Position numbers and translations under genes: made by a program | In this document: positions 5,061 through 25,426 of the stretch, piece after piece | Layout of the letters: each line of letters opens with the position of its first letter | Position numbering within the stretch: the stretch's first letter is position 1 | Assembly: GCA_024278215.1 (NCBI GenBank) | Contig: JAJRTR010000148.1 | Span: 1 to 38,006 of the forward strand | Reading direction: 5' to 3' | DNA from: a bacterium | GTDB lineage: Bacteria > UBP15 > UBA6099 > JAJRTR01 | Length of the DNA: 38,006 bases | Notes under the pieces: generated by a model | What the model saw: only the letters and a program-made list of their open reading frames with translations | The model's database searches: none | What the model was told of the DNA's origin: nothing

Positions 5061-5840
5061 CTATTCGCCGCCCTTGTTCATACTCTTCATGAATGTGCTG
5101 AAGAGGTCGATAGGAATGGGGAACAGGGTTGTAGAGTTGTTTTCGGCGGCGACTTCGACAAGTGTCTGGAGAAAACGGAGCTGGATGGTGATGGGCTCCT
5201 CGGCCATGATGGCGGCTGCTTCTGCGAGGCGTTTGGATGCCTGGAATTCACCTTCGGCTGATATGATCTTGGCCCGGCGTTCTCTTTCGGCTTCGGCCTG
5301 TCGTGCCATTGCGCGTTTCATGTCCTGGGGGAGTTCGACGTCTTTAACTTCGACGGTGGAGACTTTGATGCCCCAAGGATCGGTGTGGTCGTCGATGATT
5401 TCCTGGAGTTTACGGTTGATTTTTTCACGTTGTGAGAGTAGTTCGTCGAGTTCGGATTCGCCGAGCACGCTGCGGAGTGTAGTCTGCGCTATCTGTGAAG
5501 TAGCAGCGACAAAGTTTTCAACTTCTATGACTGATTTGTTGGGTTCCATGACGCGGAAGTATATTACGGCGTTGACCTTTACGGGCACGTTGTCGCGAGT
5601 GATGACTTCCTGTTCGGGTACATCCATGGTGATGGTACGCAGGTCAATCTTTATCATCTTATCAACGAACGGGATGATGATGATAAGTCCGGGGCCGCTG
5701 CCTCCGATAAGTGCTTTCGAGACGCGACCGAGTCTGAATATTACGGCGCGTTCATATTCGGACAGCACCTTTACTGCCGAGAAAAGAAACACAATGATGA
5801 GTACAACAATAAATACCAACTGTGAGGGAAGACCTTCCAT
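5061..5840 (-). CDS. Slipin (stomatin/prohibitin-like SPFH membrane protein)
   Basis: 259 residues: one N-terminal membrane helix (about 7-25), then [13 protein letters not shown], the entry to the SPFH/band-7 domain, with [15 protein letters not shown] and W-G-I-K-V-S-x-V-E-V-K-D. An Ala/Glu-rich coiled coil follows ([12 protein letters not shown]). Full length for a slipin. AAGGAG stands eight bases before the ATG. Slipins form large membrane-bound oligomers and are commonly encoded beside NfeD proteases, which cut stomatin C-termini in the archaeal example. NfeD lies immediately upstream on the same strand, but 269 bp containing a repeat separate them, where such pairs are usually tight. 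Confidence 0.93.
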
Positions 5841-5889
5841 AATATCACATCTCCTTTTTTAAGGCTGCAAGTAAAACCTTTTTATCACT

Positions 5890-6067
5890 GAGCCGATTGC
5901 AAAATTCTGATTCGGCTGCGGTCGGCTGCTATTGTCCATAGCTGCGTTGTCGGCACAAAATCGTCCTCGACGTACTCTACAAGTACGCCTGCGAGGATTT
6001 TACACCTCTGCCTTGCTCTGAACAATTTCGCTCGACCTCGCTACGAACATAATTTTGCAATTGGCTC
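5890..6067 (-). repeat. Dispersed 179-bp inverted-repeat element, copy 1
   Basis: 178 bp bounded by GAGCCGATTGCAAAATT and AATTTTGCAATTGGCTC (17-bp ends, one mismatch). The centre is an imperfect palindrome: GTACT, a short loop, AGTAC, nested in TCCTCG/CGAGGA. Copies 2 (12051) and 3 (13939) align over the full length. It has no shared reading frame. It lies between the NfeD stop (42 bp away) and the slipin start (49 bp away), with its CAGAATTTTGC end toward slipin. Confidence 0.85.
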
Positions 6068-6109
6068 CACTGATGTTTTCAGTGCCGGAATTATAACAGA
6101 CAACCGTTG

Positions 6110-7816
6110 TTATGTCATCAATCTGACAATAATCTCCATTCCGTCAACTGAAACTATTTCCACCCGCGCGCCTGCTTCGATCGTTTCGCCCGACTGTGAC
6201 ACGGCGTTCCATAACTCGCCGTTTGCGAACACTTTTCCTTCAGGGTCGAGTTTTCTGCGTACTTTGCCCTTTTTACCGACCATTCCCTGTTTGCCCGTGG
6301 TGACCTGTGCTCTGTGCGATTTTATTACCGCCGCAAGCACCACGAGAAATAAGAACATTGTCGAAAATACAACGGTTGCAATAAGCTTCAGGTCTATCTG
6401 CATCGCGGGGTCTGTCGAATCTATAAGCATGAGAGAGCCCAATATCATTAGTGCTATCCCTCCAATCGTCAGCAGTCCATGACTGACTATTTTTATTTCG
6501 AGCATAAACATTACTACCGCACCGACGATCAGCAGTAGTCCGATGGTATTTATCGGAATCACCTGGAACGAGGTGAACGCAAGCACGAGACACACAGCGC
6601 CGATGACGCCCGGAACGACTGTGCCGGGGTGAGTCACTTCGAATATGAGCGCATAGACACCGATCATAAGTAGAATGTACGCTATATTCGGGTGGCCTAT
6701 GATGCTGAAGAATTTCTCGCGTAGCGACATTGCCACATCCTCGACGCGCGCGTCTTTTGTTTCAAACACATAAGTTGTGCCGCCGCTGATTTCTTCGCGG
6801 CCCGTGAGCAACCTCTTCAGTTCGTCGTCTATCTCGTCCACGGAAAGTTCGAGCTGGCCGCCGTAGTAATCTTCGCCCCTGATGCCCCGTTTTTTCAGCA
6901 TCTTCCGCAGTTTGCCGTCAAGGTCTTTGCCGGAGAGTAGCAATTGTGCAGGCTGCTCATTTTTTTCTATGATGCCGCGCTTGACAAGTGCTCCGCGCAG
7001 TTCGTCGTCGATGTCAGACGCCTCGACAACAATTTTGCCCGATGTCTTTTCGTTTTCGTCCGGGAGCAGTCCGCGTTTATCGAGTTCGGCCCTGAGGCTG
7101 TCGCTCATCTCGTCGAGATAGACGACATAGGTTTCCTGCCCGCCCTTGACCACCTCCATGCCGTCGAGTTGCGCGAGCAGGTCGTCGAAGTCGGAAGCGA
7201 TGATTTCGACGACATTTTTCGCCCTGGCTTCCTGCGCGGTGACAGAAATGCTTTTCACAACGGCGTTGCGCCCGATCTCGACGTTCCTGCCCCTGCGGCG
7301 CACGAGTTGTTCCATATATTTGACGGCATAGTTGGTCGTTTTTTCCTTCATTACATCGTCCATCTTCTGCCCGTCGCCCGACACGGGATGCGCCGAACCC
7401 GCGCTGGTATCGGGTGCCATGGCGGCGATGTCCGAGGCCATGAGAATGAAGAAACCAGCGGAAGTGGCCGTGCTGCCGTTGGGAAAAACGTAGACGACGA
7501 CAGGCAGGTGGGCATTGATCATCGCGGTGGCGATGTCTTTCATGGAGTCCATGAGGCCGCCGGGAGTGTCTATTGTAATGATGACGCAGTTAGCATTTAT
7601 TGATTCGGCGTGCCGGATGCCGCGCTCGACATAGTTTTTCGACGCGCCGCCGATGATACCGTCGATATCGAGGCGCACAATCGGCCCGGCGCGTTTCGCC
7701 CGCGCCGCCGACGAAGCCACGCACAGCAGCAGAACCGCGATTATCAACACGCGCACCGTTATGCGCACATTCGCCACCTGCCTATTGTGTCTGAAAATGT
7801 GTTGAAATCTGCTCAT
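6110..7816 (-). CDS. NfeD-family membrane serine protease (ClpP-class) with a tandem-repeat linker
   Basis: 568 residues. A signal or membrane segment at 20-40 is followed by a ClpP/crotonase-fold protease domain: D-T-P-G-G-L at 83-88, then S-T-A-T-S-A-G-F-F with the likely nucleophile Ser119, and K-T-T-N-Y with Lys159 as the partner by analogy to Pyrococcus 1510-N. Residues about 229-372 hold four or five copies of a 26-32-residue unit (x-D-x-L-R-x-x-L-x-K-R-G). Four membrane helices follow (about 378-500), then a C-terminal NfeD OB-fold-like domain. Its start overlaps the M48 protease stop by ATGA-type coupling, and slipin follows. Known relatives cleave stomatin-like proteins at the membrane. 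Confidence 0.93.
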   Translation of the reverse strand: MSRFQHIFRHNRQVANVRITVRVLIIAVLLLCVASSAARAKRAGPIVRLDIDGIIGGASKNYVERGIRHAESINANCVIITIDTPGGLMDSMKDIATAMINAHLPVVVYVFPNGSTATSAGFFILMASDIAAMAPDTSAGSAHPVSGDGQKMDDVMKEKTTNYAVKYMEQLVRRRGRNVEIGRNAVVKSISVTAQEARAKNVVEIIASDFDDLLAQLDGMEVVKGGQETYVVYLDEMSDSLRAELDKRGLLPDENEKTSGKIVVEASDIDDELRGALVKRGIIEKNEQPAQLLLSGKDLDGKLRKMLKKRGIRGEDYYGGQLELSVDEIDDELKRLLTGREEISGGTTYVFETKDARVEDVAMSLREKFFSIIGHPNIAYILLMIGVYALIFEVTHPGTVVPGVIGAVCLVLAFTSFQVIPINTIGLLLIVGAVVMFMLEIKIVSHGLLTIGGIALMILGSLMLIDSTDPAMQIDLKLIATVVFSTMFLFLVVLAAVIKSHRAQVTTGKQGMVGKKGKVRRKLDPEGKVFANGELWNAVSQSGETIEAGARVEIVSVDGMEIIVRLMT

Positions 7817-10719: not shown

Positions 10720-10748
10720 ATTATATAAGGAATCAAAGAGAGTTTACA
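10720..10748 (-). promoter_or_regulatory. Weak putative promoter for the M48-NfeD-slipin cluster
   Basis: The minus strand has TATAAT (10725-10720) with TGTAAA 17 bp upstream (10748-10743), matching three of six -35 positions. The leader would be about 110 nt and contains an inverted repeat GAACCTG/CAGGTTC (10617-10652) just before the first start codon. Confidence 0.3.
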
Positions 10749-11922
10749 CGCTGTCCGAATGTGCCAGGTCGTAATCGGCGTAAGTACGTTCGTGCGGTTC
10801 GATGTCGGGCCAGTATGTCCGCCACTTCGGATGGGTGATGTACCAGATTCTTTCCAGTTTTTTATTTCTCGCGTACCATTCGAGAGTGACTTTCATGCCG
10901 AGAGCGGTTTCAGGATATTTGAGCACATAGCCGGTGGCGGCAAGTTTGCTGTTGTCGTAAACATAATGTGATTTAAAAAAGGCGAAGTCGTCGCGTTCCA
11001 TATTGACAAAAGGCACCTTTATGCCTTTGGGCAGCAGGTTGTAGAAAGCGTCGGCCAGCCGGTCCGGTGTGCCGACGATAGGGATTCTGACTCTGAGCCT
11101 GCTCGCGCATTCCTCGAACATTTCCCTGAATGTGTTCGGTGTGTTGTCGGCGACATTGAATACCTGCCCGGAGATGTCCATGTTCGCGAGGCAGTATATA
11201 AGATGCATCGCCGCACCGACCACATCATCAATGTGCACCGAACTGAACATGTTGTTGCCGCTTCCGGGAATCGTAATGAAAGGGATGATCCCGCCCCATG
11301 AGAGCGGTGTAAGCGCCTTGGACATGGCATATTCGCCTCGGGGACCGTACACGCTTGCCGGTCTGATAATCACCAGCGGCATACCGTCGCGCTCATACTC
11401 CAGCGCTGCCTCTTCCTGTCTCAGCTTGGATTCCGAATAGTTGTTTACGGGGTTCGGCGTTTTGTCTTCCGTAATCGGGGCCGGACTGCTCGCACCGCCG
11501 TAGAGCATGACAGTACTCCATATTGCAACGCCCATGAGATCGGGCGCATATATCGAGGCGGTATCCAGAAGATTGCATGTACCGCCGACGTTAACCCTGT
11601 TCAGGGTACCGCGCGAAGCGCTCATATCGAATATCGCCGCAGGGTGCATTATGTATTGAACCCGCCGCTTCTCGAAAAGTTTCTTTAGCGAACTTCTCTC
11701 CGTAAGGTCCGCCGCTACGATGTCCAGTGTAACATCCGCATATCGCCCGGGGTGCGCTTCCATATAGTTCCTGTGCCTTCGCACCGCGCGAAAATCCGAA
11801 CCCGGCAGGTCCGTCGCAAGCACCGGGTAGCCGTGCTGGAGCAGGTAGTCGACTGCCGTTGAACCCGTAAATCCCGATGCGCCGGTTACCAGTACTACCC
11901 CCAACTCATCTGCTGTGCTCAT
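10744..11922 (-). CDS. Extended SDR, NAD-dependent epimerase/dehydratase or 3-beta-HSD-like
   Basis: 392 residues. T-G-A-S-G-F-T-G at about 14-21 is the Rossmann nucleotide motif. H-P-A-A-I-F-D, then W-S-T-V-M-L-Y-G with a Thr at the catalytic Ser/Thr position, and Y-S-E-S-K, the YxxxK catalytic pair, are intact. R-P-A-S-V-Y-G-P-R and the H-I-D-D-V-V segment fit sugar-nucleotide epimerases and 3-beta-hydroxysteroid-dehydrogenase-like SDRs. About 60 residues beyond the usual end are rich in aromatic residues. It stands alone, convergent with nothing and divergent from the response regulator, with repeat copy 2 128 bp upstream. Substrate unknown. Confidence 0.85.
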   Translation of the reverse strand: MSTADELGVVLVTGASGFTGSTAVDYLLQHGYPVLATDLPGSDFRAVRRHRNYMEAHPGRYADVTLDIVAADLTERSSLKKLFEKRRVQYIMHPAAIFDMSASRGTLNRVNVGGTCNLLDTASIYAPDLMGVAIWSTVMLYGGASSPAPITEDKTPNPVNNYSESKLRQEEAALEYERDGMPLVIIRPASVYGPRGEYAMSKALTPLSWGGIIPFITIPGSGNNMFSSVHIDDVVGAAMHLIYCLANMDISGQVFNVADNTPNTFREMFEECASRLRVRIPIVGTPDRLADAFYNLLPKGIKVPFVNMERDDFAFFKSHYVYDNSKLAATGYVLKYPETALGMKVTLEWYARNKKLERIWYITHPKWRTYWPDIEPHERTYADYDLAHSDSV

Positions 11923-12050: not shown

Positions 12051-12230
12051 GAGCCAACTGCAAAATTCTGATTTGGCTGCGGTCGGTTGCAATTGTCAAC
12101 AGTTGCGTTGTCGGCACAAAATCTTCCTCGACGTACTCTACTAAGTACGCCTGCGGTGATTTTGCAGCTCAGCCTTGTTTCTGAACAATTTCGGTCGACC
12201 TTGTTTCGAGCTTATTTTGCAATTTGCCCT
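12051..12230 (-). repeat. Dispersed 179-bp inverted-repeat element, copy 2
   Basis: About 180 bp with ends GAGCCAACTGCAAAATT and ATTTTGCAATTTGCCC, so the outer end is more decayed than in copy 1. The core CGACGTACTC with a short loop and AGTACGCCTGC is conserved. Its CAGAATTTTGC end faces the SDR at 11922. The 486-bp space between the SDR and the response regulator holds this element and the promoter at 12347; I see no gene in it. Confidence 0.8.
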
Positions 12231-13928: not shown

Positions 13929-13938
13929 ATCATTGTAA

Positions 13939-14117
13939 GAGCTAATTGCAAAATTATATTCGTAGAGAGGTCGAACGAAATTTTTCAGAAGCAAGGCGGA
14001 GGTGTAAAATCCCCGCAGGCGTACTCGCCGAGTACGTTGAGGATGATTTTGTGCCGACAATGCAGCTATGTACAATTGCAGCCGACCGCAGCCGAATCAG
14101 AATTTTACAATTGGCTC
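13939..14117 (+). repeat. Dispersed 179-bp inverted-repeat element, copy 3
   Basis: 179 bp, ends GAGCTAATTGCAAAATT and AATTTTACAATTGGCTC, orientation opposite to copies 1 and 2. The central hairpin is GTACTC-GCC-GAGTAC. Its right end is 20 bp before the PilZ ATG. The 430-bp gap between the cyclo-ligase and PilZ genes is this element plus AT-rich DNA. One frame happens to be open through it into PilZ, but the other copies have stops and indels in that frame. Confidence 0.85.
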
Positions 14118-14137
14118 GTAAGAGAAAGCAGAACATC

Positions 14138-14527
14138 ATGGCACCGGCTACAGAGAGACAACAGGACAGGCGCAGATCGAAGCGTATCCCGCTGAGAGGT
14201 GCAAGCATGGCATGTCGCGGGGATAGAGGCGATCTGCTTAACATATCAACACTGTTTGATATCAGTGAAGGCGGGGTTGGGTTCTGCACACGGGACAAAG
14301 TTGACATCGGCACAAAAATAAAATTTGACTTCTACCTGCCGATCTCAAGAAAAGGCGAAGATATAAACGGAGAAGGTAAAGTAGTATGGATAGTACAGTA
14401 CTGCGACGTATTCGGAGATAATGTAATGCGATGCGGGCTGCAATTTCTGAATCTGCCGTCAAGATCACAACAGGGAATCCGCAAATATATAAAAATCACA
14501 TTGAAACAGAAGAAAAACGGTATCTGA
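14138..14527 (+). CDS. PilZ-domain protein (probable c-di-GMP receptor)
   Basis: 129 residues. R12-x-x-x-R16 in R-R-R-S-K-R followed by D41-x-S43-x-x-G46 in D-I-S-E-G-G are the two c-di-GMP-binding motifs of PilZ, here both intact. V-V-W-I-V-Q-Y and the final helix G-I-R-K-Y-I-K complete the beta-barrel fold. It is a stand-alone PilZ protein with no other domain. The ATG at 14138 is chosen because it lies just before the domain with AAGAGAAAG upstream. The frame is open further upstream only through repeat copy 3. Such proteins alter motility, surface polysaccharide or secretion when c-di-GMP rises. Its partner is not evident here. Confidence 0.85.
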   Translation: MAPATERQQDRRRSKRIPLRGASMACRGDRGDLLNISTLFDISEGGVGFCTRDKVDIGTKIKFDFYLPISRKGEDINGEGKVVWIVQYCDVFGDNVMRCGLQFLNLPSRSQQGIRKYIKITLKQKKNGI

Positions 14528-24244: not shown

Positions 24245-24250
24245 GTAAAT

Positions 24251-24297
24251 GCCAATTGCGGCTGACCTGTGCCGGACCAGAATTTTGCAATTGGATC
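24251..24297 (+). repeat. Internally deleted copy 4 of the 179-bp repeat
   Basis: 47 bp: the left-end motif GCCAATTGC joined to a sequence matching the last 46 bp of copy 3, ending CAGAATTTTGCAATTGGATC. About 130 bp of the interior is missing. It lies 25 bp before the alanine dehydrogenase ATG, in the same relative orientation as the full copies. Confidence 0.7.
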
Positions 24298-24322: not shown

Positions 24323-25426
24323 ATGATTATCGGCGTACCGAAAGAAATTAAAGAAGAAGAATACCGGGTTGCGATAACACCTGCCGGTGTGAGATCGTTC
24401 GTGGAGTCCGGGCACAAGGTGATAATTGAAAAAACCGCGGGAGTTGGCAGCTACATAACTGCCAGGGAATACAAGGAAGCAGGCGCGAATATTGCCGCGA
24501 ATATTGCGAACGTCTATAAAAGAGCAGACATGATTTTAAAGGTCAAGGAACCGCTTCCGCCCGAATATGATCTTATACGCGAGGGACAGCTTCTGTTCAC
24601 CTACCTGCATCTCGCGGCGAACGAAAAGCTGACACGACATCTCATGAAGAGCGGTTCGACCTGCATCGCGTATGAAACCGTCACGAGGAGCGACGGGCAC
24701 CTACCGCTGCTACGGCCCATGAGCGAAGTTGCGGGAAAAATGGCGGTCCAGGTGGGCTGCCAGTTCCTCGAAAAAAGAAAAGGCGGCCGGGGTATTCTCA
24801 TCAGTGGAGTGCCGGGAGTACCGCCTGGCGATGTTGTGATCATAGGCGGCGGTGTGGTCGGACTGAGCGCCGCGCAGCTTGCTGTCGGACTCGGTGCGCA
24901 GGTGGCGATACTCGATGTCAGCACAAAAGTGCTGCGCCATGTCGACGAGAACATGCACGGCCGTGTAATTACTATTAAATCCACTCCCCAGTCCGTGGAA
25001 AGCGCTGTGAAATATGCAGACCTCGTCGTCGGCGCAGTTCTCGTAACCGGCGCGAAAGCGCCCAAAGTCGTCACGCGGCGCATGATCAAAGAAATGAAGC
25101 CCGGCTCCGTTATCGTCGATGTCGCCATCGACCAGGGGGGCTGCATCGAAACAAGCAAACTGACCACTCATTCGCATCCGACATTCACTTACAACGATGT
25201 CGTCCATTATTGTGTGGGTAACATGCCCGGCGCTGTGCCGCGCACATCAACACTCGCTCTGACAAACGAAACACTTCCATACGCCCTCGAACTCGCTAAC
25301 AAAGGATTCATTGATGCTGTGAAAGGTAACGAAGGTCTCGCCAACGGTGTAAATATTCACGATGGTAAATGCGTTCATCAGGGCGTGGCTGAGGCATTCA
25401 AACTTAAACTTTCGGAGATTTTTTGA
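24323..25426 (+). CDS. ald: Alanine dehydrogenase
   Basis: 367 residues, full length. NAD-dependent interconversion of L-alanine with pyruvate and ammonia. The N-terminus G-V-P-K-E-I-K-E-E-E-Y-R-V is diagnostic. The substrate residues are the Lys in K-V-K-E-P and the His in T-Y-L-H-L-A, as in the Mycobacterium enzyme (K75, H96). The NAD fold begins G-G-G-V-V-G and binds in the middle third. D-Q-G-G-C-I-E and V-P-R-T-S-T-L-A-L-T near the end are also conserved. AAAGGGG stands nine bases before the ATG, just after the truncated repeat. It could allow alanine catabolism or, in a sporulating or fermenting cell, alanine synthesis; the context does not decide. Confidence 0.97.
   Translation: MIIGVPKEIKEEEYRVAITPAGVRSFVESGHKVIIEKTAGVGSYITAREYKEAGANIAANIANVYKRADMILKVKEPLPPEYDLIREGQLLFTYLHLAANEKLTRHLMKSGSTCIAYETVTRSDGHLPLLRPMSEVAGKMAVQVGCQFLEKRKGGRGILISGVPGVPPGDVVIIGGGVVGLSAAQLAVGLGAQVAILDVSTKVLRHVDENMHGRVITIKSTPQSVESAVKYADLVVGAVLVTGAKAPKVVTRRMIKEMKPGSVIVDVAIDQGGCIETSKLTTHSHPTFTYNDVVHYCVGNMPGAVPRTSTLALTNETLPYALELANKGFIDAVKGNEGLANGVNIHDGKCVHQGVAEAFKLKLSEIF

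Follow-up and report, generated by a model that had tools for sequence, protein, structure and literature searches.

The 178-bp element described here, found in a 38,006-nucleotide stretch of bacterial DNA (the window), is a MITE, a mobile non-autonomous DNA transposon. Covariance models show it as part of a bacteria-wide superfamily whose members share a ~180-nt hairpin core under different terminal repeats and at different target sites. Bacterial MITEs are usually regarded as local products derived from local insertion sequences; in this case the interior appears old and shared while the ends change, and a supposedly local repeat now seems to be a branch of an old family with a wide distribution. 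No Rfam family was found at gathering score in the window or over the distant copies, and we found neither an Rfam entry for the superfamily nor a description of it in the literature.

Copies, mobility and the search for a parent

The window contains four copies (Table 1). Copies 1 to 3 align end to end over 178-180 bp, as the preliminary description had it, with copy 3 reversed. The 17-bp inverted ends reported there, of the form GAGCCAATTGCAAAATT, are present in copy 1 (16-17 of 17 positions identical) and in most full copies of the genome, but the right end of copy 2 is degenerate. Copy 1 is flanked by CACT on both sides (5886-5889 and 6068-6071), copy 3 by GTAA (13935-13938 and 14118-14121), and copy 2 by the imperfect pair TGAT/TTAT. 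Copy 4 had been called truncated; it is instead a mini form, of a class that carries exact 4-bp duplications elsewhere in the genome.

Table 1. Positions of element copies and associated features. Locations without a contig label refer to the window.
Feature	Location	Strand	Remarks
Copy 1, full 178-bp element	5890-6067	-	listed strand is the one modelled as RNA, the more stable of the two
Copy 2, full-length	12051-12229	-	100 bits against a covariance model
Copy 3, full 179-bp element, reversed	13939-14117	+	
Copy 4, 49-bp mini hairpin	24249-24297	+	same ends as the long copies
Band_7/SPFH gene	5061-5840	-	follows copy 1 on the strand modelled as RNA
Promoter-like site ATGACA-17-TATAAT	6090-6118	-	11/12 match, TG before second hexamer; consensus match only
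Mini hairpin, exact 4-bp duplication	C67:15841-15889		same 49-bp size class as copy 4
Mini hairpin, exact 4-bp duplication	C199:8779-8826		48 bp
Mini hairpin, exact 4-bp duplication	C182:13840-13878		
Mini hairpin, exact 4-bp duplication	C6:16952-16997		
Second-family copy	C115:38073-38247		
Second-family copy	C160:34437-34635		
Second-family copy	C112:54796-54993		
PF13701 gene	G277:C139:3029-4375		

The genome to which the window belongs comprises 4.55 Mb in 207 contigs. A genome search at up to 3 mismatches returned 288 left ends and none for a reversed-pattern control, and a first-look search scored 40 full copies among its first 500 candidates. Many contigs end inside element copies (C25, C174, C62, C64, C78, C85 and others), which probably makes the count lower than the real number of copies. 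Over 0.78 Mb, 29 of the 46 copies with both ends intact are bounded by an exact 4-bp target duplication, where 0.6 would be expected; the count rises to 37 when one mismatch is allowed, and other duplication lengths of at least 3 bp account for 0-2 cases. The targets, which include CACT and TTAC, show a C-NNNN-G tendency. Lengths of 178 and 179 bp dominate, with rarer forms of 39-49, 103-107 and 162-169 bp, some of which carry exact target duplications. At 39-49 bp, the mini hairpins share the ends of the long copies and show exact 4-bp duplications, which makes them a mobile form of very small size. Across 2.12 Mb, all 143 full copies lie outside the genes called by our simple script, by which about 80% of the DNA is coding. 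The element is short, without coding capacity, and present as many dispersed intergenic copies. Together, the ~290 copies and the exact target duplications identify it as a MITE and bear out the mobility implied when it was first called MITE-like.

According to the preliminary description, a transposase with matching ends would make the element a plain MITE. None was found in the 2.1 Mb examined of the 4.55-Mb genome; since this is only about half of the genome and MAG assemblies often lose insertion sequences, a parent's absence is not proven. Within the same 2.1 Mb, no pair of ends 0.5-4.5 kb apart encloses a transposase. The three PF01609 loci of the genome lack element ends, PF05598 is absent from its profile search, and a Pfam search gave no convincing PF13701 parent for the window family. 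Likewise, no matching-end transposase lies near the unpaired ends in G092, a genome that carries relatives of the element. Many described bacterial MITEs similarly have no known parent (PMC2229807). Two further candidates were rejected as parents. The C84 cluster looks like chance or separate insertions, as does a DUF342/FapA-like gene lying between two half elements at C175:1696-3518 (L091) with TTAT on both outer sides; the latter arrangement is probably chance, although it could be a captured gene. A weak, stop-containing PF13701 match was also observed ~145 bp from a full copy (C44:16102-16254, L144).

A conserved hairpin core with differing ends

BLAST against 40 other genomes gave a match in one only (G005), where a 179-bp copy with a 71% identical core has the same fold and different ends. 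The exact left-end pattern was found in no other GTDB genome, and blastn against phages and plasmids returned no match. R1, a covariance model of 43 local copies against which copy 1 scores 211 bits, was run on 385 other genomes and detected relatives over the full length in 15 of them (E 1e-4). A second model, R2, built from 28 distant copies, detected such full-length relatives in 47 of the 385, about one in eight; these are mostly 177-183 bp long, usually several per genome, and mostly in other phyla. For most R2-positive genomes the domain is the only taxonomic rank in common with the window, whose own phylum is represented by 7 genomes in the set. Covariance E-values are rough; at 1e-4 per genome the chance expectation is well under one genome. 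The superfamily hairpin carries the motifs TTCGTNGCGAG, CAAGG, CCGNAGGCGTAC, GTACGTCGAGGA, AACGCAG and CGCAGNAGAA, and the window element fits this pattern.

Covariation shows a conserved single-strand fold, in line with the earlier suggestion of an RNA-forming element. In the A3 alignment of 28 distant copies, 86% of cells are paired, compared with 56% when shuffled and 33-42% when slid; two-sided changes occur at 64 of 68 stem pairs, with 549 two-sided cells against 181 in shuffles. Genomes outside the R2 training set (17 copies from 16 genomes) gave 89% paired cells against 55%, two-sided changes at 66 of 68 pairs, and 410 two-sided cells against 135. These alignments were fitted to the model and their matches selected by its score, which leans them toward pairing, but the pairing excess is too large and the copy numbers too high for this lean alone. 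Covariation in the local family exceeds that of shuffles by a small margin only; there is accordingly little sign of selection on pairing among recent copies, and RNA-level selection inside the local family is not demonstrated by covariation within local copies.

The conserved letters occupy internal loops and the positions next to them, and are arranged symmetrically over the two arms. On inspection, a single asymmetric internal-loop module recurs three times among them, with C[RA]G facing C[GNA]G: UUCGUNGC-GA-G / C-GCA-GNAGAA, C-AA-GG / AAC-GCA-G, and CC-GNA-GGCG / CGUC-GA-GGA. The predicted fold of copy 1 spans its full length, with -74.9 kcal/mol (z -7.6) for the minus strand and -65.9 kcal/mol (z -6.6) for the plus strand, and none of its shuffles folds as well. 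Of the two possible RNAs, the modelled minus-strand one has the greater stability in 134 of 143 local copies and in 27 of 28 distant copies, and core cells number 143 for G-U against 52 for A-C. Part of this strand asymmetry could stem from the conserved letters or from the model, whose training on minus-strand sequence may lead it to prefer G-U.

The ends differ from group to group. The window family has GAGCCAATTGCAAAATT ends of the GAGCC type and a 4-bp target duplication, the G005 copy has GAGGCTCTAACAAAA beside TTA/TAA, and the G092 copies have GAAGCGGTTTCATAAGTC, mostly beside TA. Members in G041, G277, G354, G154, G213, G362 and G200 have CCCG[CG]A..TCTCA-like ends beside YTAR, and G003 has a related form. 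YTAR flanks 19 of 42 left ends and 21 of 42 right ends, and exact duplications with left equal to right (4 cases, 2.4 expected) are not above chance. In G092 there is also a variant of 161-166 bp that has these TA-flanked ends, with a core that is shorter and different (C63:35599-35759 and C96:66206-66371).

The window's own genome contains a second hairpin family of 175-200 bp, CCCGGATTTCTCACAAAG ... GGTGAAATATGCGGG, with CCCG-type ends and TTAA/YTAR flanks. Its copies are sometimes inserted into copies of the first family, and its flanking duplications are equal in 11 of 30 cases against 3.2 expected. All five of the weakest R2 matches in this genome fall on second-family copies; as judged by the model, this family belongs to the superfamily as a distant member. 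That one genome contains two families of the superfamily, differing in ends and targets, is the best single argument that the core outlives its ends.

IS1380-type (PF13701) transposons have CCCG ends and YTAR/TTAA flanks, as the YTAR-type members do, whereas the window family ends in GAGCC. The window element thus lacks the ends and target of an IS1380 derivative, and the second local family has both. PF13701 transposases occur in six of nine member genomes searched and in one of 14 controls, which is consistent with their moving the YTAR type. They are likely, if putative, agents of its transposition.

ERIC and other described repeats

ERIC repeats have been known since 1990-91. Like the window family they are intergenic, form a single long stem-loop, and encode no transposase (PMC2229807, PMC2267715). 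ERIC, also described as IRU or RU-1, has a TA target and a reported orientation-dependent effect on mRNA (PMC2229807, PMC2267715); in Yersinia, orientation is crucial for the effect on mRNA decay (PMC2229807). The motifs CAAG(G), AGG.G.TAC / GTA.GT and AACGCAG are shared, in the same order, between ERIC and the superfamily core. Against R2, which had no ERIC in its training, a Pantoea ERIC scored 29.0 bits in register (E 7e-6), and against the core-only model R3 it reached E 0.0016. Copies from Klebsiella and Enterobacter scored up to 10.4 bits (E 0.12) and those from E. coli 4.6-9.5 bits against R2, which are not significant alone; a Serratia copy gave no match in register. With both R2 and R3, one of seven ERIC loci was significant. 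On these model scores ERIC is a probable rather than a proven relative. Its length of 127 bp, TA target and own ends differ from the 178 bp, 4-bp C-NNNN-G target and GAGCC ends of the window element, which is therefore an ERIC relative at most and not an ERIC. We found no link of ERIC to other phyla in the literature.

Other short repeats resemble the element in part. YPAL / RU-2 of Yersinia (168 bp) is by description of similar size, palindromic, intergenic and mobile (PMC2229807). Chunjie of Geobacter, QMITE1/2 of Coxiella, Nezha, and Correia/NEMIS are likewise short MITEs, which have inverted ends, duplicate their targets and give rise to stem-loop transcripts (PMC10969869); all are single-lineage families by description, and none is reported to have a cross-phylum core under different ends. 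REP/BIME and IS200/IS605 derivatives are likewise palindromic, intergenic and of high copy number, but REP/BIME consist of 20-40 bp GTAG/CGTC-tagged units, unlike a 178-bp element with inverted ends and 4-bp duplications (PMC3733652).

Orientation near start codons and competing explanations

All four window copies have the same orientation relative to start codons. Their reported distances of 49, 128, 20 and 25 bp are correct: the left end of copy 2 faces the start of an epimerase gene (10744-11922, minus) at 128 bp, that of copy 3 a PilZ gene (14138-14527, the start at 14138 giving the 20 bp), and that of copy 4 an alanine dehydrogenase gene (24323-25426) at 25 bp. The bias suspected from these copies extends across the genome. 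In the first 1.16 Mb, 16 left ends and one right end lie within 60 bp of a start codon. The held-out 0.95 Mb gave left/right counts of 13 vs 5 within 60 bp (p=0.10), 17 vs 5 within 80 bp (p=0.017) and 22 vs 7 within 100 bp (p=0.008), and the overall count within 80 bp is 35 vs 9 (p=1e-4). Stop-facing ends number 22 left and 27 right. Over all codirectional gene pairs the bias is weak (44 vs 30, p=0.13), and such pairs in other genomes gave 17 vs 12; neither count is significant by itself.

The distance from near-start copies to the start codon is 16-60 bp. A promoter-like site (at least 10/12) is present upstream in the sense direction in 18% of them, compared with 2% in shuffles, 0% antisense and 3% for other copies. 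Together with the orientation skew, this suggests from sequence that near-start copies are transcribed 5' leaders with the structured strand as sense. At copy 1, transcription from the promoter-like site (6118-6090, minus) would traverse the entire hairpin and reach the Band_7 gene 49 bp further on. NfeD1b and Band_7/SPFH genes usually form an operon pair; in the window the NfeD1b gene (6110-7816) and the Band_7/SPFH gene are separated by copy 1 and the promoter-like site.

We consider it fairly probable that the element represents a family of non-autonomous transposons which share a conserved hairpin core and are moved by different transposases, with one strand tolerated or used as RNA. The mobile MITE, the wider family, the conserved fold, the differing ends and the near-start skew are shown; we infer mobilisation in trans by different transposases, a function at the RNA level, and ERIC as a branch. 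In the proposed mechanism, a MITE with 17-bp GAGCCAATTGCAAAATT ends that duplicates 4 bp of target, and whose hairpin core with its three C[RA]G / C[GNA]G modules belongs, by the covariance models and covariation, to the bacteria-wide superfamily, would be moved in trans by DDE transposases matching its ends. The core would outlast changes of the ends because the folded strand is under selection. Copies near starts tend to lie as 5' leaders, the minus strand of copy 1 being structured sense RNA, and the structured strand may be compatible with, or tune, expression of the downstream gene, for which the effect of ERIC on Yersinia mRNA decay offers a comparison. The opposite strand would be selected against near start codons. 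The reason for this avoidance is presumptive: the plus strand is C-rich and G-poor (28% vs 22%), which could favour Rho-dependent termination.

The target duplications, inverted ends, intergenic sites and size would all be fully explained if the element were a palindrome left by deletion from a local insertion sequence, with the fold a by-product and the skew due to chance or insertion bias. The weak local covariation agrees with this, and the C-NNNN-G preference is itself a site bias. Such a derivative should not, however, share its core with elements of other phyla under other ends; core covariation and conserved unpaired motifs recur in genomes outside training, and the skew was repeated in the held-out half. 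We regard this explanation as unlikely and already disfavoured. A little less improbable is that the hairpin matters as DNA, either as an extruded strand or through CTGCG/CCTCG-type duplex motifs, for recognition by a transposase or host protein, with no RNA role. The element is plainly mobile DNA, its conserved motifs occupy both arms symmetrically, and G-T pairs form in single-stranded DNA too. Against this, near-start copies are placed as leaders with one strand sense and promoter-like sites upstream, and the same core appears to serve different transposition systems, making a single transposase unlikely as the selective agent.

The skew might also arise if near-start insertions survived when the left end supplied an outward promoter, as in Correia elements, and with 16-60 bp to the start codon there is hardly space for a second promoter. 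At the left end, however, promoter-like scores are not above those of the right end read outward and are not higher in near-start copies (8.2 vs 8.6), and the promoter-like excess is instead upstream of the element; an outward promoter in the left end is thus unsupported by these scores, and we judge it improbable. 

Returning to the conserved core moved by different transposases, we tentatively extend this reading to a single ancient core that would have persisted as RNA structure in different bacterial phyla and repeatedly changed its ends for unrelated transposases, with ERIC as one branch; it would be a mobile regulatory RNA cassette older than any of its transposons. If true, this would account for the origin of ERIC and provide one testable model for many bacteria: a mobile, orientation-sensitive RNA leader at hundreds of loci per genome.
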